In this document: positions 8,122 through 31,978 of the stretch, one piece after another
Layout of the letters: each line of letters begins with the position of its first letter
How positions within the stretch are numbered: position 1 is the first letter of the stretch
Source of the DNA: Ilumatobacteraceae bacterium
GTDB taxonomy: Bacteria; Actinomycetota; Acidimicrobiia; Acidimicrobiales; Ilumatobacteraceae
Assembly: GCA_021298435.1 (NCBI GenBank)
Contig: JAJTFJ010000018.1
Location: 1 to 35,906, forward strand
Direction of reading: 5' to 3'
Length of the DNA: 35,906 nt
Notes under the pieces: model-generated
Told to the model about the DNA's origin: nothing
The model's input: only the letters and a program-made list of their open reading frames with translations
Database searches by the model: none
Translations under genes and position numbers: made by a program

Positions 8122-8149
8122 AAAAAACCCCCTGCCTGGGCAGAGGGTT
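8122..8149 (-). terminator. Rho-independent terminator of the leuA attenuator
   Basis: Read on the minus strand, AACCCTCTGCC and GGCAGGGGGTT form a stem of about 10 bp with a tight loop, followed directly by six T residues (8127-8122). It lies between the leader peptide and leuA. The left arm contains CTGCC, which could instead pair with GGCAG just downstream of the leader stop, giving a plausible antiterminator. Confidence 0.88.
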
Positions 8150-8178
8150 TCGACAGCAACGATATTCGGCTGCTGCCG

Positions 8179-8214
8179 TTACATAAGGAGGAGGAGCGTC
8201 TTCAAGGTCTTCAC
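8179..8214 (-). CDS. leuL: leuA leader peptide MKTLKTLLLLM
   Basis: An 11-residue reading frame, GTG to TAA, with five leucines. Four are consecutive (CTC CTC CTC CTT) and directly precede Met and the stop. It sits 29 nt before a strong terminator hairpin and 107 nt before leuA. This is the textbook layout of amino-acid attenuation: when charged Leu-tRNA is scarce, ribosomes stall on the Leu run and the terminator fails to form. A TATAAC -10 box ends 9 nt before the GTG, so the transcript has almost no 5' leader and the peptide is probably translated from a near-leaderless message. The codon run, terminator and position are seen directly; the regulatory behaviour is inferred from the known mechanism. 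Confidence 0.87.
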   Translation of the reverse strand: MKTLKTLLLLM

Positions 8215-26949: not shown

Positions 26950-28325
26950 CTAGTCCTTTGTCGCACTAGCCAGGCGGCTTCGGCTTCACCCATCGGTGTC
27001 GATGGGCCAGCGTTTGTCATTGGCCACAACTCTTCACTGATGCGACGGAAGTTTCCTGCGGCGCCGAGTTGCCCGAGCAATGCATACAGACCCAAGTTGA
27101 TGCGCTGAATGAACACAAAAGCTTTCGGAACAGTGGCGTATTGCGCAATGGCCGAGGTGCGATCAAAAGTGTGACGCACGATGGACGTGGCGTATTCGGT
27201 CGACCACGTCATCTCCTTTGACTCGCGCACGGGCGCATAGAAGTGCGCGAAATAATCGCCTGCCTCTTGAGTGGTGAAAGGCGCATCGGGTTGCAACATG
27301 CCAGCGTCTTCAATGATGCGGCGATACTTCTCCATGTCGTCTTCCAACACAGCCGCGCTCACCATTCCCTGGAACATTTCCATTTCTTCCACGGTGAAGT
27401 GTTTGATGAGTCCAAAGTCAAGGAAGGTCACACGACCGTCCTTGTGGAAGATGTAGTTACCAGGATGTGGATCACCATTAAATGCGCGGAAGCGATACAA
27501 GCTGCGGAAGACAAAACGGAAGATCGCTTCACCGACGTTGTTGCGTTCTGCTTGTGACCATTCCAGAACTTCAGCAAACGAATGACCGCTCACGAGTTCA
27601 GTGATGAGAACACGCGAGGTGGAGTATTCATGCAGAACTTCGGGAACATGAATAAACGGGTGTCCTCGATAGAAATCAGCGAATGTCTGCTGGTTCTGTG
27701 CCTCGAGTGTGTAGTCAAGTTCCTCGCGCAGACGATCCTTGATTTCAGCGACCATGTCCTCTGGATTCAGACTCTTAAAACCAAACGCAAGTAATGCGCC
27801 CAACAAGTCGGCAGTGCGGATATCAGCATCAATCGCTTCAGCAACACCGGGATATTGCACTTTGACTGCCACGGCACGTTCACCTGCTGGTGTGCGAAGA
27901 ATTGCGCGGTGTACTTGTCCGATTGATGCAGCAGCAATGGGCTCATCGTCAAACTCGACGAACATCTCAGCGACTGGACGACCTAATTCGGTCTCTAAGA
28001 CTTCATGAACAAGTTCGACCGCCATCGGAGGCGCATTTGATTGCAGTTGGCCAAGAGCAAGACGCATGGGCTCAGGCAAACCATCATCGAGATAGCTAGC
28101 CATCTGACCCAACTTCATGAGTGCGCCCTTCATGTTGCCGAGTTCGGTGGCTACCTGTTGAGCAGTCTTCATCTCGCGATCACGCGACAGTTGCTCGCGT
28201 CGTTCGGCGCCAGCAAATACTTTGCGTGCAGATGTGCCGGCATGGGCAAGACCAATTCGGGCGCCGAGGCGAGCCAGACGACTATTTCGTCGCCACCGTG
28301 ACCGAAGATTGATTGCAGATTTCAT
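26946..28325 (-). CDS. ABC1/AarF/UbiB-family atypical protein kinase-like protein
   Basis: A 459-residue member of the UbiB (ADCK) family. Motifs: the family-specific KLGQMASYLDDGLPEPM (KxGQ motif) near residue 72, the Ala-rich nucleotide loop AAASIGQVHRAIL, the invariant Lys in VAVKVQYPG, the catalytic loop NGDPHPGNYIF, and FLDFGLIKHF (DFG). These proteins support isoprenoid quinone or lipid homeostasis in other organisms; substrates are poorly defined, so no specific role is claimed. The ATG at 28325 overlaps the hydrolase stop by 4 nt. It is the third gene of a greA-hydrolase-kinase operon. Its TAG stop overlaps that of nadC on the other strand. Confidence 0.9.
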   Translation of the reverse strand: MKSAINLRSRWRRNSRLARLGARIGLAHAGTSARKVFAGAERREQLSRDREMKTAQQVATELGNMKGALMKLGQMASYLDDGLPEPMRLALGQLQSNAPPMAVELVHEVLETELGRPVAEMFVEFDDEPIAAASIGQVHRAILRTPAGERAVAVKVQYPGVAEAIDADIRTADLLGALLAFGFKSLNPEDMVAEIKDRLREELDYTLEAQNQQTFADFYRGHPFIHVPEVLHEYSTSRVLITELVSGHSFAEVLEWSQAERNNVGEAIFRFVFRSLYRFRAFNGDPHPGNYIFHKDGRVTFLDFGLIKHFTVEEMEMFQGMVSAAVLEDDMEKYRRIIEDAGMLQPDAPFTTQEAGDYFAHFYAPVRESKEMTWSTEYATSIVRHTFDRTSAIAQYATVPKAFVFIQRINLGLYALLGQLGAAGNFRRISEELWPMTNAGPSTPMGEAEAAWLVRQRTS

Positions 28326-29200
28326 GACACTGAATCGCGAGAAGGGACATCAGTTGTCGAACGATGATGCACATTGAGACATGCATTCACGAGCATGGGA
28401 ACAAAGCGATCTGCATGTGCAAACACTGCATCGTGGTCTGCATCAATGGTTTGTGTAAAGACATTCGGTATCAACTGGGCAAGTTCATGCTGACGATCAG
28501 TGGCGACAACCCGATCTTGGGTCGTGATGATCATTGCCGTCGGTGCAGCCACTTCAGGTAGCCATTTGCGAGAGTCATACAGACCAAGTGCCGCACCAGC
28601 TTCAAGGATGAGACGCCATTCGTGGTCTGACGCTTCCTTGGCTGCCCACGGTTCCCACGTCATTGTTTTGCGCGACACATACAAACGATGAGAGATCGAT
28701 TCACGAAGGGATGCAGGCACAAGCCGAGACAGTGCACCAATGCCTGCGAGCGCGGTGAAACCGATGCGTTCTTTCCGCTCTTCCACAAAATGCCCAGACG
28801 TCGCTGCAAGAACTAAGCCGCTGACACGATGCGCGTGGCGCTTCCACACAAGTTGTGCAACGGTGCCACCCATGGAATACCCGACAGGAATGAATTTCTC
28901 GATACCTAACTGATCAGCGAGTGCTGCCGCATCATCAGCACAATCCGACAACTTGAATTGGCGCTTGGTGCGAATGCCGCGTCCGTGTCCGCGATGGTCA
29001 AGTGCGATCACACGAAAGTGTTGGCCCAGTTGTTCGTAACACATGAACCAGTTGAGGTCGGCCGTTGCAGTCCAGCCGTGCAACAACATCAACGTTGGTG
29101 CACCGGCAGGGCCTTCCACTTCTCGAAAGTACGTGGTGCCACGTCCGGGAAGAGAGATGAAACGACCAGGCGGCAGATTCGGAGTTGGGTGATCGCTCAG
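28322..29200 (-). CDS. Alpha/beta hydrolase, probable CTG start
   Basis: A serine hydrolase of unknown substrate. The first conventional start, GTG at 29119, would give 265 residues but would cut off the natural first strand of the fold. In-frame sequence upstream encodes RFISLPGRGTTYFREVEG, the normal N-terminus for this family, and there is no ATG, GTG or TTG there. The CTG at 29200 overlaps the greA TGA as CTGA and has AAAGG about 7 nt upstream, giving 292 residues. The core is intact: MLLHGWTATADLNW (oxyanion region), nucleophile elbow VGYSMGGTV (Ser about 109), acid QDRVV (Asp about 229) and ADHDAVFAH (His about 256). It ends in an ATGA overlap with the kinase gene. Confidence 0.85.
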   Translation of the reverse strand: MSDHPTPNLPPGRFISLPGRGTTYFREVEGPAGAPTLMLLHGWTATADLNWFMCYEQLGQHFRVIALDHRGHGRGIRTKRQFKLSDCADDAAALADQLGIEKFIPVGYSMGGTVAQLVWKRHAHRVSGLVLAATSGHFVEERKERIGFTALAGIGALSRLVPASLRESISHRLYVSRKTMTWEPWAAKEASDHEWRLILEAGAALGLYDSRKWLPEVAAPTAMIITTQDRVVATDRQHELAQLIPNVFTQTIDADHDAVFAHADRFVPMLVNACLNVHHRSTTDVPSRDSVS

Positions 29201-29676
29201 TTCTCGACCTTTACGACTGTCACTGAAACTTTCGCGCCATTCTCGAGAGTGATCTGCACCTTTTCGCCCTCGTGCTTACCAAGCAGCGCAGATCCGATAG
29301 GGGAGACAGGACTCATCACTTCCACACCTTCGCCAGTGCGCTTTTCTTCGATGTGTCCGATGAGATACAACTCGGCGTCTTCGGCGTCATCGCCATCGAA
29401 CAAAATGGTGACGCGCGAGAGAACGCCCACTTCGCCTGCTGGTGGAGCAGTGGCAATCTCTGAACTTTCCAAGATGGAAAGCAGCAGATTCTTGCGGTCG
29501 TTCAACTGGCCATACTCGTCTTTGGCGGCGTGGTAGTCGCCGTTTTCCTTGAGGTCGCCCATTTCACGGGCAATGCCAATGAGGTCTGCAACACGTGGAA
29601 GCTCGTTGTGCTCCAGGTGGGTGATCTCGGCCTCGAGCCTTTTGTAGGTCTCTGCTGACAGAAGGTGCTTTGCCAT
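29197..29676 (-). CDS. greA: Transcription elongation factor GreA
   Basis: A 159-residue factor that stimulates transcript cleavage by backtracked RNA polymerase. The N-terminal coiled coil ([19 protein letters not shown]) with the acidic tip [21 protein letters not shown] is followed by the FKBP-like C-terminal domain ([38 protein letters not shown], ending [10 protein letters not shown]). I chose the ATG at 29676 ([14 protein letters not shown]) from the family N-terminus; the frame stays open 71 codons further, but that stretch overlaps leuB on the other strand. No clear Shine-Dalgarno. The TGA stop overlaps the hydrolase CTG. Divergent from leuB, with 39 bp between starts. Confidence 0.94.
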
Positions 29677-29715
29677 GCGAGGAAGGCTATCTGCGCCTTC
29701 TACGATGGAGCCCCT

Positions 29716-30711
29716 ATGGCACATCGCATTGCACTCATTGGTGGAGACGGAATCGGACCAGAAGTCACGGCGGAAGCCGTCAAGGTGGTGCGTGCGACCG
29801 GAGTCGCCATTGAGACCACTGATTTTGACCTCGGTGGTATGCGGTATCTGCGCGATGGTGAGATCTTGTCTGACGATGTGCTTGATCAATTACGCAACTT
29901 TGACGCCATCTTGTTGGGCGCCGTCGGCACCCCTGATGTTCCTCCTGGCATTATCGAGCGTGGCCTTCTCTTGAAGATGCGTTTTGATCTCGACCTTTAT
30001 GTGAATCAACGACCTTTCGCAGGCACTGCTCCTGGTCACATCACGCCTCATGACTTCGTTGTCATCCGCGAGAACACTGAAGGCCCGTATGTGGGCGAAG
30101 GCGGCGTTCTTCGTCGGGGTACCGCTCATGAGATTGCAACACAGGGCAGTGTGAACACGCGCCATGGTGTTGAGCGTTGTATCCGTTATGCATTCGAGCT
30201 TGCAGCGAAGCGCGAGCGTAAGCACGTGACGCTGGTGCACAAGACAAACGTGCTCACCTTCGCGGGTGACCTCTGGCAGCGTGCCTTTAACGATGTTGCA
30301 AAAGAGTTCCCGCAAGTAGGAACCGCGTACAACCATGTTGACGCCGCATGTATCTACTTCGTGGAAGATCCGCACCGCTATGACGTCATCGTGACCGACA
30401 ACTTGTTTGGTGACATCCTCACCGACCTCGGTGGTGCCGTCAGCGGCGGCATCGGTTTGGCATCGTCGGCCAACCTCAACCCTTCTCGCACCGGTCCGTC
30501 CATGTTTGAGCCGTCTCATGGTTCAGCACCCGACATCGTGGGTACAGGCAAGGCCAACCCCACAGCGGCCATTTTGTCTGCTGCTCTGATGTTGGAATTC
30601 CTGGGCGAAAATGATGCCGCAGCCCGTATTCGTGCCGCTTGCGACACTGCCCCCACGGGCAACACCGTCGAAATCGGAAACTCAATCGCCGCACTCGTTG
30701 CTGGCAAGTAA
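29716..30711 (+). CDS. leuB: 3-isopropylmalate dehydrogenase
   Basis: NAD-dependent oxidative decarboxylation of 3-isopropylmalate, and of 3-methylmalate if the citramalate route runs. The 331-residue length fits the short actinobacterial LeuB. Motifs: [40 protein letters not shown], the substrate-binding [27 protein letters not shown] with catalytic Lys, and [20 protein letters not shown] plus [13 protein letters not shown] with the metal and NAD positions. I chose the ATG at 29716 ([10 protein letters not shown]) because it has GGAG upstream; the in-frame ATG at 29665 lies inside greA. ilvE follows after 30 bp, so the two are likely co-transcribed. Confidence 0.93.
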
Positions 30712-30741: not shown

Positions 30742-31659
30742 ATGCCCACTCTTGTCCCAACACCGAAAATTTGGATGAACGGCACTCTTGTCGACTGGGA
30801 CAAAGCTCAGGTGCACGTTCTCACGCACACGCTTCACTACGGAACAGGCGTCTTCGAAGGAATTCGCGCATACGAAACTGCTGATGGCCCCGCAGTCTTC
30901 CGTTTGACCGAGCACATCGAACGACTCTTCCGCAGCGCAAAGATTCTCGGTATGGAGATTCCATACACGGTGCAAGAAATTGTTGATGCAACTCGTGAGA
31001 CAGTTCGTTCCACTGGTTTGCCTGGTTGTTACATCCGCCCGATTGCGTATTACGGCTACGGCGAGATGGGTCTGAACACTCTTCCGTGCAGTGTTGACGT
31101 TGCGATTGCGTGCTGGCCATGGGGTGCTTATTTGGGCGAGGATGCCATGACCAAGGGTGTGCGCATGAAGATCTCTTCATGGAAGCGTCTGGACCACAAC
31201 ATGCTTCCTCCTGCTGCAAAGACCGTTGCGAACTACGCAAACTCCTCGCTAGCCAAGGTGGAGGCATTGCGCGCCGGATACGACGAGGCAATCCTTCTCA
31301 ATATGGAAGGTCTTGTCAGCGAGTGCACCGGCGAGAACCTTTTCGTTGTGCGCAACGGCAAAGTCATCACACCGCCACTTTCGGCTGGAGCGCTGGAAGG
31401 CATTACCCAGTGGAGCGTCATTAAGATTCTTCAAGACCTTGGCTACGAAGTCGAGACGGGCAATATCGCTCGCTCCGACCTTTACATCGCTGAAGAAATC
31501 TTCTGTGTGGGTACAGCTGCTGAAGTCAGCGCCATTAACTCGGTTGATGACCGCAGCGTTCCTTGCCCCGGCCCGATCACCAAGCAGGTGGCGGATATCT
31601 ACGGCAAGGCCGTTCGTGGCCAACTCCCGCAGTACAAGGACTGGCTCGAGCTCGCCTGA
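30742..31659 (+). CDS. ilvE: Branched-chain amino acid aminotransferase
   Basis: PLP-dependent transamination that makes leucine, isoleucine and valine from their 2-oxo acids. The 305 residues form a fold IV aminotransferase. HTLHYGTGVFEGIRAYET and IRPIAYYGYGEMGLN are near the N-terminus. The active-site Lys lies in PPAAKTVANYANSSLA, about residue 159; then EAILLNMEGLVSECTGENLF and the phosphate-binding LSAGALEGITQWSVI and FCVGTAAEVS. TAGGAGC precedes the ATG by about 6 nt. It follows leuB by 30 bp. Beyond it is a 319-bp gap with the cimA regulatory region. Confidence 0.94.
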   Translation: MPTLVPTPKIWMNGTLVDWDKAQVHVLTHTLHYGTGVFEGIRAYETADGPAVFRLTEHIERLFRSAKILGMEIPYTVQEIVDATRETVRSTGLPGCYIRPIAYYGYGEMGLNTLPCSVDVAIACWPWGAYLGEDAMTKGVRMKISSWKRLDHNMLPPAAKTVANYANSSLAKVEALRAGYDEAILLNMEGLVSECTGENLFVVRNGKVITPPLSAGALEGITQWSVIKILQDLGYEVETGNIARSDLYIAEEIFCVGTAAEVSAINSVDDRSVPCPGPITKQVADIYGKAVRGQLPQYKDWLELA

Positions 31660-31776: not shown

Positions 31777-31805
31777 TTGACGATTGCCTCAAATACGGCG
31801 ATACT
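31777..31805 (+). promoter_or_regulatory. Promoter of the cimA leader transcript (TTGACG, 17 bp, GATACT)
   Basis: TTGACG at 31777-31782 and GATACT at 31800-31805 are separated by exactly 17 bp. The leader ATG begins 7 nt after the -10 box, where transcription would be expected to start, so the leader mRNA is probably leaderless. Confidence 0.8.
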
Positions 31806-31812
31806 TTCTCTC

Positions 31813-31878
31813 ATGTTGACCGCAAGCATCTCCCGCCGCCTTCTCGGCTCTGCTGCGTCAATCATCATTATTCTCTAG
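31813..31878 (+). CDS. cimA leader peptide with four consecutive isoleucines
   Basis: A 21-residue frame, ATG to TAG. It begins MLTASISRRLL and ends SIIIIL: four consecutive Ile codons (ATC ATC ATT ATT) and a Leu directly before the stop. It sits directly behind a good promoter and 29 nt before a terminator hairpin, with cimA 100 nt downstream. The arrangement matches amino-acid attenuation sensing charged Ile-tRNA, which fits because citramalate synthase opens a route to isoleucine. A GCGCACG/CGTGCGC hairpin starts at the last base of the stop codon and could serve as the pause or competing stem; I did not find a clear antiterminator pairing. Leaderless translation is likely. The elements are seen directly; regulation is inferred. 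Confidence 0.85.
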   Translation: MLTASISRRLLGSAASIIIIL

Positions 31879-31907
31879 CGCACGCCGGCCTCCGACGTGC
31901 GCGCACC

Positions 31908-31930
31908 GACCGCCTTAGGGCGGTTTTTTC
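31908..31930 (+). terminator. Rho-independent terminator of the cimA attenuator
   Basis: ACCGCC (31909-31914) and GGCGGT (31919-31924) form a perfect six-pair GC-rich stem with loop TTAG, followed by six T residues (31924-31929). It lies between the leader peptide and cimA. Confidence 0.88.
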
Positions 31931-31978
31931 ATTCCCTGATTCACCCCACCAGACAAGATTTACAACGGAGACACCGAG

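Follow-up and report, generated by a model that had tools for sequence, protein, structure and literature searches.

The window analysed here, a stretch of 35,906 nucleotides from an Ilumatobacteraceae bacterium (contig JAJTFJ010000018.1 of assembly GCA_021298435.1), carries the citramalate synthase gene cimA downstream of leuB and ilvE, and between ilvE and cimA lies a predicted leader element composed of a promoter, a short ORF with a run of isoleucine codons close to its stop, a hairpin anchored at the stop codon (hairpin 1) and an intrinsic terminator (Table 1). The cimA product scored above the cut-off of the NCBIfam citramalate synthase model TIGR00977 (682.7 vs 450 bits), leuB passed the NCBIfam cut-off for its name, and the product of leuA, whose own leader lies in the same window, passed two 2-isopropylmalate synthase models. 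A GreA-like protein is encoded at 29200-29730 on the minus strand, divergently from leuB; it stays below every NCBIfam GreA/GreB cut-off listed, the best score being 120.9 vs 161 bits.

Table 1. Features of the cimA leader region and of the companion leuA leader (positions in the window).
Feature	Position	Strand	Remarks
ilvE	30742..31659	+	upstream of the leader; passes the NCBIfam cut-off for its name
-35 hexamer TTGACG	31777..31782	+	direct sequence reading
-10 hexamer GATACT	31800..31805	+	17-nt spacer to -35; ATG 7 nt downstream
Leader peptide ORF, MLTASISRRLLGSAASIIIIL and stop	31813..31878	+	predicted leaderless; ATG at 31813, 21 codons
Four Ile codons ATC ATC ATT ATT (codons -5 to -2)	31861..31872	+	followed by CTC and TAG
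Leader stop TAG	31876-31878	+	one codon (CTC, Leu) between Ile run and stop
Hairpin 1, stop-anchored	31878..31902	+	7 bp GCGCACG/CGTGCGC plus inner 3 bp
Spacer, hairpin 1 to terminator	31903..31907	+	5 nt
Intrinsic terminator	31908..31929	+	7-bp stem 31908-31925; T6 31924-31929; computational only
cimA, citramalate synthase, 527 aa	31979..33562	+	SD-like GGAG 31967-31970, 8 nt before ATG
Companion leuA leader ORF	8179..8214	-	GTG 8214-8212; ends LLLLM; stop TAA 8181-8179
leuA leader hairpin and terminator	8122..8178	-	hairpin 8178-8151; T run 8127-8122

The original prediction had described a promoter with correctly spaced hexamers closely preceding the ATG, a peptide ending Ile-Ile-Ile-Ile-Leu, a hairpin at the stop codon and a terminator with six T residues before cimA, and base-level reading of the letters bore out all of these parts, with the G of the UAG forming the first pair of hairpin 1. 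The GGAG of cimA follows 94 nt downstream of the end of the Ile run, and a transcript running on from ilvE would also meet the leader terminator. Taken singly, neither promoter-like sites (3 found vs 5.2 expected) nor terminator-like sites (6 found vs 8.2 expected) were in excess between positions 27000 and 35906. The combination of leader parts is rare, unlike promoter or terminator alone: when the 35.9-kb window was scanned blindly on its two strands for at least four identical Ile, Leu or Val codons among the last six, together with a hairpin at the stop codon and a terminator, two sites only came up, the leaders of cimA and leuA, whereas the same scan on 40 two-strand shuffles gave 1 match in total. 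The 118-nt leader folded with a z-score of -3.45, and 1 of 200 shuffles was equally good.

The decisive evidence that the predicted leader is real is its conservation. The first cimA loci were gathered by protein, independently of the leader (29 loci of the family, L083-L111), and 27 of them carry a leader with at least three consecutive Ile codons, the remaining two being L104, with Ile-Glu-Ile, and L100, which is too short. This protein-anchored set and the protein-anchored genus loci described below are free of the bias that comes with Ile training, the latter being confined for cimA to 24 genomes from a single genus and one from a sister genus. A covariance model built from 20 leaders, the E-values of which are rough and some matches of which precede other genes, gave matches in 167 of the 221 family genomes, in 87 of 198 genomes taken as a sample of the order and in 22 of 396 taken likewise from the phylum. 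From loci L112-L148, L161-L163 and L175-L254 we used 100 of 120 as the cimA set (98 loci of the family, and L144 and L147 from other families), which yielded 98 unique elements; the 20 omitted loci were repeats or near-copies, the contig-end loci L137 and L196, and L253 and L254.

The stop codon is UAG in all 98 unique elements. Ile occupies codon -2 in 98, codon -3 in 91, codon -4 in 94 and codon -5 in 81 of them, counts that are partly built in because most elements were gathered with the Ile-trained model; it is found at codon -1 in none of the 98, and Ala is the residue seen most often at -6. Hairpin 1 opens on the G of UAG in 97 of the 98 elements, its loop spans 3 to 20 nt (3-6 nt in 66), and the terminator begins 0-6 nt behind it throughout, as located by a parser that places the terminator after hairpin 1. 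Six of the seven pairs of hairpin 1 have changed on both sides, and none of 500 shuffles reached the observed covariation scores; sliding the pairing partners abolished the covariation, in an alignment that was itself fitted to the model. In 93 of 93 distinct rows the G of UAG is the invariant closing pair, and the stop is presumably fixed as UAG because this G closes hairpin 1, which UAA or UGA could not do. The T runs are interrupted in several relatives. A look in relatives for the Ile run and the terminator upstream of cimA was the check suggested by the original prediction; both are kept, and the relatives support an Ile-keyed leader peptide, predicted to be leaderless, with a terminator before cimA.

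Leaderless initiation was approached through the promoters, with an in-frame start required 4-9 nt after the -10 hexamer and a score of at least 8. Promoters of this spacing precede 45 of the 98 elements, compared with 1.3 expected from shuffles (the other 53 fell below the score threshold), and 30 of the 56 elements of the order-wide set described below, compared with 0.2 expected. The gap between -10 hexamer and start measures 6-7 nt in 39 of the 45 and 7-9 nt in 26 of the 30, and an SD-like motif before the start was seen in 1 and 2 of them, respectively. The window element (row L131) has a gap of 7 and a spacing of 17. This promoter spacing agrees with leaderless initiation and supports it, short of proof.

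The original prediction had paired the cimA leader with that of leuA, and the pairing holds across the genus: all 26 leuA loci that include the gene start (the 27th, L360, lacks it) have a leader closing with a Leu run, and a leader closing with Ile codons precedes cimA in all 28 loci whose upstream sequence is long enough, with at least three consecutive Ile in 27. These 28 cimA loci represent 25 genomes, L361-L363 being from duplicate genomes of L102, L087 and L094; 24 of the 25 belong to the genus (24 of its 32, taken from the best 30 cimA matches) and L106 belongs to the sister genus. Congeners extend the pair by a Val-keyed leader before ilvB, which could be parsed in 20 of 27 genus loci, with at least three consecutive Val in 19 and a mixed run (IVLVVLA) in L381. 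In all parsed leuA, cimA and ilvB leaders a hairpin stands at the stop and a terminator directly after it. With Leu at leuA, Ile at cimA and mostly Val at ilvB, the codons of each leader therefore correspond to the end product of the branch entered through the enzyme concerned. By eye, the loop of the leuA leader hairpin (GCCG(A/C)ATATCG-like) is near-invariant, more so than pairing alone requires.

In the 330 nt scanned, no ilvB leader was parsed in 7 of the 27 loci. Inspection by eye pointed to degraded or missed leaders in L376 and L388 and to a terminator only in L383, and no leader was visible in the 150 nt printed for L333, L374, L377 and L380. L333 is the genome of the window itself, where no Val leader was seen within 700 nt upstream of ilvB either, so that only the leuA and cimA pair remains there. 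The region upstream of ilvB in this genome (G000:C51) includes an AT-rich stretch in which a GGCATTTTTTGC element may be present. In L253 and L254, from genus g2 of the family, Val-Val-Val-Ile codons are accompanied by the same stop-side hairpin and a terminator; the L254 element precedes, by eye, an acetolactate synthase-like ORF.

Beyond the family, the order-wide set comprises 56 of the 63 loci L149-L160, L164-L174 and L255-L294, seven near-copies or repeats being omitted; 52 of the loci are from the order, three from the class and one from another class. Their leader codons are mostly Ile and Val. Among the Val codons at positions -5 to -2 in the leaders of L149-L174 and L255-L294, 40 of 65 are GTA. 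Downstream of these elements we found leuB in 46 of 56 cases, cimA alone in one (L170) and an unidentified gene in nine; within the fetched stretch 42 of the 46 leuB loci also held ilvE and four held cimA. In the seven genomes where both positions were available, cimA starts about 2.0 kb past the element on the same strand, as would be expected for consecutive leuB-ilvE-cimA genes. Conversely, none of 20 family loci from genera g2, g9 and g18, which gave weak or no model matches, has a leader at cimA, and in all of them cimA directly follows ilvE (identified with tblastn in 19 and by eye in the short L310). The idea that the element is tied to cimA everywhere was rejected on these 20 loci. Since the leader is absent where cimA abuts ilvE and present before leuB, the element seems to go with whichever gene heads the transcription unit.

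In a further sample of 28 cimA loci, 7 were flagged as having a branched-chain leader, and another such leader was noticed by eye in L008. Outside the order, 40 cimA loci, about one per family, gave candidates in three cases: L395 (peptide MSASIIIIA, identical with the site of L170), L410 (VATATVIID) and the doubtful L431; the settings used returned no candidate in the other 37. Additional candidates were picked up by script in L053 and L071 and by eye in L063 and in the Nonomuraea loci L060, L064 and L068. Judged from these samples, occurrence of the putative element outside the order is sporadic.

Folding was used to ask what the ribosome could do to such a leader. The leading edge of the ribosome was placed, by assumption, 13 nt from the start of the codon in the A site, and with this footprint hairpin 1 had a median probability of 1.00 for a ribosome waiting at the first Ile codon, 0.39 for one at the last Ile codon and 0.00 for one at the stop; the element of the window itself gave 0.005 with the ribosome at the last Ile codon. 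The terminator probability was high throughout in equilibrium folding with ribosome masks (medians 0.94-0.97). As the probability of hairpin 1 shifts with ribosome position, the structure under ribosome control in this model is hairpin 1, not the terminator. Equilibrium folding is uninformative on antiterminators because the Escherichia coli thr and leu controls behaved alike; only the hairpin 1 probabilities were kept from it, and the rest was replaced by folding of transcripts truncated before the 3' arm of the terminator, with a stalled ribosome compared with one at the stop. In this assay the probability that the terminator 5' arm is paired upstream fell, from stalled to stop, from 0.90 to 0.05 in the thr control (L315) and from 0.67 to 0.01 in the leu control (L317), whereas none of the 100 loci of the cimA set and none of the 56 order-wide elements had a stalled-minus-stop difference above 0.3 in this non-pseudoknotted, protein-free folding. 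The difference was reversed in sign, with medians of -0.39 in the cimA set and -0.44 in the order-wide set.

We consider the element to be, very probably, a transcription attenuator of cimA that senses isoleucine-tRNA, and the likelihoods that we attach below to particular mechanisms are shares within this reading. An isoleucine attenuator of cimA is well supported; a classical base-sharing mechanism is not supported. We infer from the promoter spacing that transcription would begin on the leader AUG and that the ribosome would load at the 5' end. When Ile-tRNA is plentiful, the ribosome would arrive at the UAG and cover the 5' arm of hairpin 1, which would stay open, and transcription would terminate. 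When Ile-tRNA is short, the ribosome would wait at the first Ile codon with its leading edge just before the UAG, hairpin 1 would fold and the polymerase would continue into cimA. Since isoleucine sufficiency should switch cimA off, a folded hairpin 1 should oppose termination, and we tentatively favour that it does so by proximity, hindering base closure of the terminator in the RNA exit channel with no bases shared between the two. Hairpin 1 and the terminator lie 1-5 nt apart in 91 of the 98 and in 54 of the 56 elements (145 of 154), and by eye the leuA and ilvB leaders, which differ in sequence, are equally compact. The available portions of the cited literature contain no direct precedent for this proximity step. 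A stall at the first Ile codon would not lead one to expect the codon counts, in which codon -2 is the most conserved (98 of 98) and the first Ile codon, -5, the least (81).

The same counts would suit an isoleucine attenuator in which hairpin 1 has the opposite role, acting as an insulator or pause hairpin in favour of termination: a ribosome held on the last Ile codons would keep hairpin 1 open and permit read-through, and upon quick release at the UAG hairpin 1 would fold with the terminator next. We regard this, the main alternative, as rather unlikely, though it draws on several of the results above. It would account for the invariance of codon -2, and a ribosome at this codon does open hairpin 1 in part, and nearly completely in the window element. 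Moreover, when hairpin 1 is open, the terminator 5' arm becomes paired upstream with medians of 0.50-0.53 in the cimA set and 0.37-0.53 in the order-wide set, compared with 0.13 and 0.10, respectively, for a ribosome at the first Ile codon. Those pairings, however, which are the ones behind the reversed sign, are no stabler than in shuffles (z near 0), a weak test in which the thr control reached -3.98 and the leu control only -0.90. Besides, the masks for a ribosome at the last Ile codon and at the stop are nearly alike, so that the switch would depend on timing, and the short spacer between hairpin 1 and terminator is not required by such a mechanism.

Classical attenuation, in which terminator and antiterminator are mutually exclusive helices with bases in common, is improbable in our estimation. 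The leaders do have an ORF in which codons for the end product stand in tandem and, computationally, an intrinsic terminator before the first gene, and they resemble the E. coli thr and leu leaders in regulatory codons, terminator and the logic of ribosome position. The E. coli leaders have an untranslated 5' part, and the cimA elements are predicted to be without one. The two E. coli leaders reveal a base-sharing antiterminator in the truncated-transcript test, but the cimA elements do not: an antiterminator sharing terminator bases was detected in none of 156 elements by non-pseudoknotted folding. Upstream complements to the terminator arm were, at their longest, not above those in shuffles (4.64 vs 4.88 and 4.96 vs 5.26), complements of at least 7 being present in 4 of 100 and 3 of 56 elements, and when stem overlap was rechecked after maximal outward extension with the terminator start unconstrained, hairpin 1 and terminator overlapped in 2 of the 98 and 1 of the 56 elements (3 of 154), by 1 nt each. 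An antiterminator formed as a pseudoknot between loop and terminator (GGTTG in the loop against CAGCC, by eye) was also considered and dropped, loops being 3-6 nt long in 66 of 98. The original prediction had set the element beside the attenuation of ilv, leu and trp operons, and in that textbook sense it was not supported, the base-sharing antiterminator not being found despite responding E. coli controls.

Precedents that favour base sharing come from other Actinobacteria. In the available text on Corynebacterium glutamicum, the three-hairpin attenuator of ilvBNC is modelled with hairpins that overlap by a boundary trinucleotide (PMC11857589); this leader and the ilvB-II motif, which is described for Corynebacterium (PMC10272879), resemble the cimA element in that they encode a branched-chain amino acid (BCAA) leader peptide and have a hairpin ahead of the terminator, and they differ in that a base-sharing antiterminator and terminator are modelled there and none was found here. 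The ilvB1 leader of Mycobacterium tuberculosis, as presented in the accessible parts of its report, likewise has a BCAA uORF, with LVVI codons whose regulatory role was tested by mutation, and an intrinsic terminator; it serves a different gene, and its 166-nt leader is described with terminator and anti-terminator alternatives (PMC13236596).

Another kind of cis-acting RNA control, such as a T-box, a riboswitch or a protein-bound hairpin, seems very improbable. The GCGCACG of hairpin 1 recurs in many families beyond what pairing needs, a point in favour of such control; on the other side, neither a T-box nor any other cis-regulatory RNA family of Rfam reached its gathering score in the window, the choice of codons tracks the gene, and the loops vary from 3 to 20 nt. 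A tRNA scan returned nothing. Least credible of all is a plain terminator of the leuB-ilvE unit with a chance short ORF and no regulation of cimA, given the register-fixed Ile codons, the covariation, the branch-matched codons of leuA and ilvB leaders and the same layout at the head of leuB units, even if the one other terminator-like match between the ilvE stop and cimA lies inside the promoter (31783-31802), so that the leader terminator may also end the upstream unit.

Returning to the putative isoleucine attenuator with a hairpin proposed to act by proximity, its closest relatives are found among the leader peptides of Actinobacteria. Seliverstov et al. (PMC1262725) described actinobacterial leaders for ilvB, leuA, leuS, trp and cys, and the available text of that study states that some attenuator components are missing in many cases and that earlier leader mutations of ilvB and leuA in Streptomyces coelicolor did not fit classical attenuation. 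Their candidate ilvB leaders and the LEU element of leuA resemble the present leaders in that a terminator follows a short ORF that contains BCAA codons; the LEU element is depicted there as a pseudoknot whose base stem lies between the Leu codons and the Shine-Dalgarno box of leuA, whereas a stop-anchored hairpin and a terminator are seen here. The words cimA and citramalate are absent from the main text of the same paper. In the available parts of a report on Streptomyces lividans (PMC8079986), ilvL, leuL1 and leuL2 are leaderless, as is predicted here, and contain BCAA codons, and hairpins and a U-rich stretch are reported for ilvL and leuL2. The targets given are ilvBHC, leuA and leuS, with cimA not among the 8 leaders listed, and the ilvL peptide mixes Ile, Val and Leu, whereas the genus examined here mostly uses one residue per gene. 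As in leaders of the ilvL/leuL type, BCAA codons near the stop are followed by a hairpin and a terminator before a BCAA biosynthesis gene. We thus place the cimA element with the actinobacterial leader-peptide attenuators, as a variant, apart from the classical base-sharing kind.

In the open-licence literature we found no report of a cimA attenuator, in line with the original prediction, which was not aware of one, and likewise no report of leaders in Acidimicrobiia or Ilumatobacter or of steric antitermination beside a leader peptide. We would propose with considerable reserve that the leaders form an Acidimicrobiia attenuator class with antitermination by other means than competing pairs, in which one module is keyed with Leu codons to leuA, with Val codons to ilvB and with Ile codons to cimA. 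Should the attenuator prove real, citramalate synthase would count among the enzymes under attenuation control, and a single genus would tune the entry of each BCAA branch by its own end product with one module. If the proximity step is true as well, it could explain why actinobacterial BCAA leaders seemed like attenuators lacking parts in the available account of PMC1262725.

The host is an uncultured actinobacterium in which the leader appears to gauge isoleucine supply through translation of a tiny peptide. Its genome is an incomplete 1.53-Mb assembly (76.5% complete) with Acidimicrobiaceae/Ilumatobacteraceae MAGs as nearest named relatives. It contains a threonine dehydratase-like gene that matches TIGR01127 just below the cut-off (364 vs 378.75 bits), and cimA may therefore not be the sole route to isoleucine but share this task with the threonine route. 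Among the loci compared, the contigs of L034, L063 and L080, which are from actinobacterial MAGs, are titled Bifidobacterium breve; these titles look wrong, and the cimA of L034 is 82% identical to that of the window.
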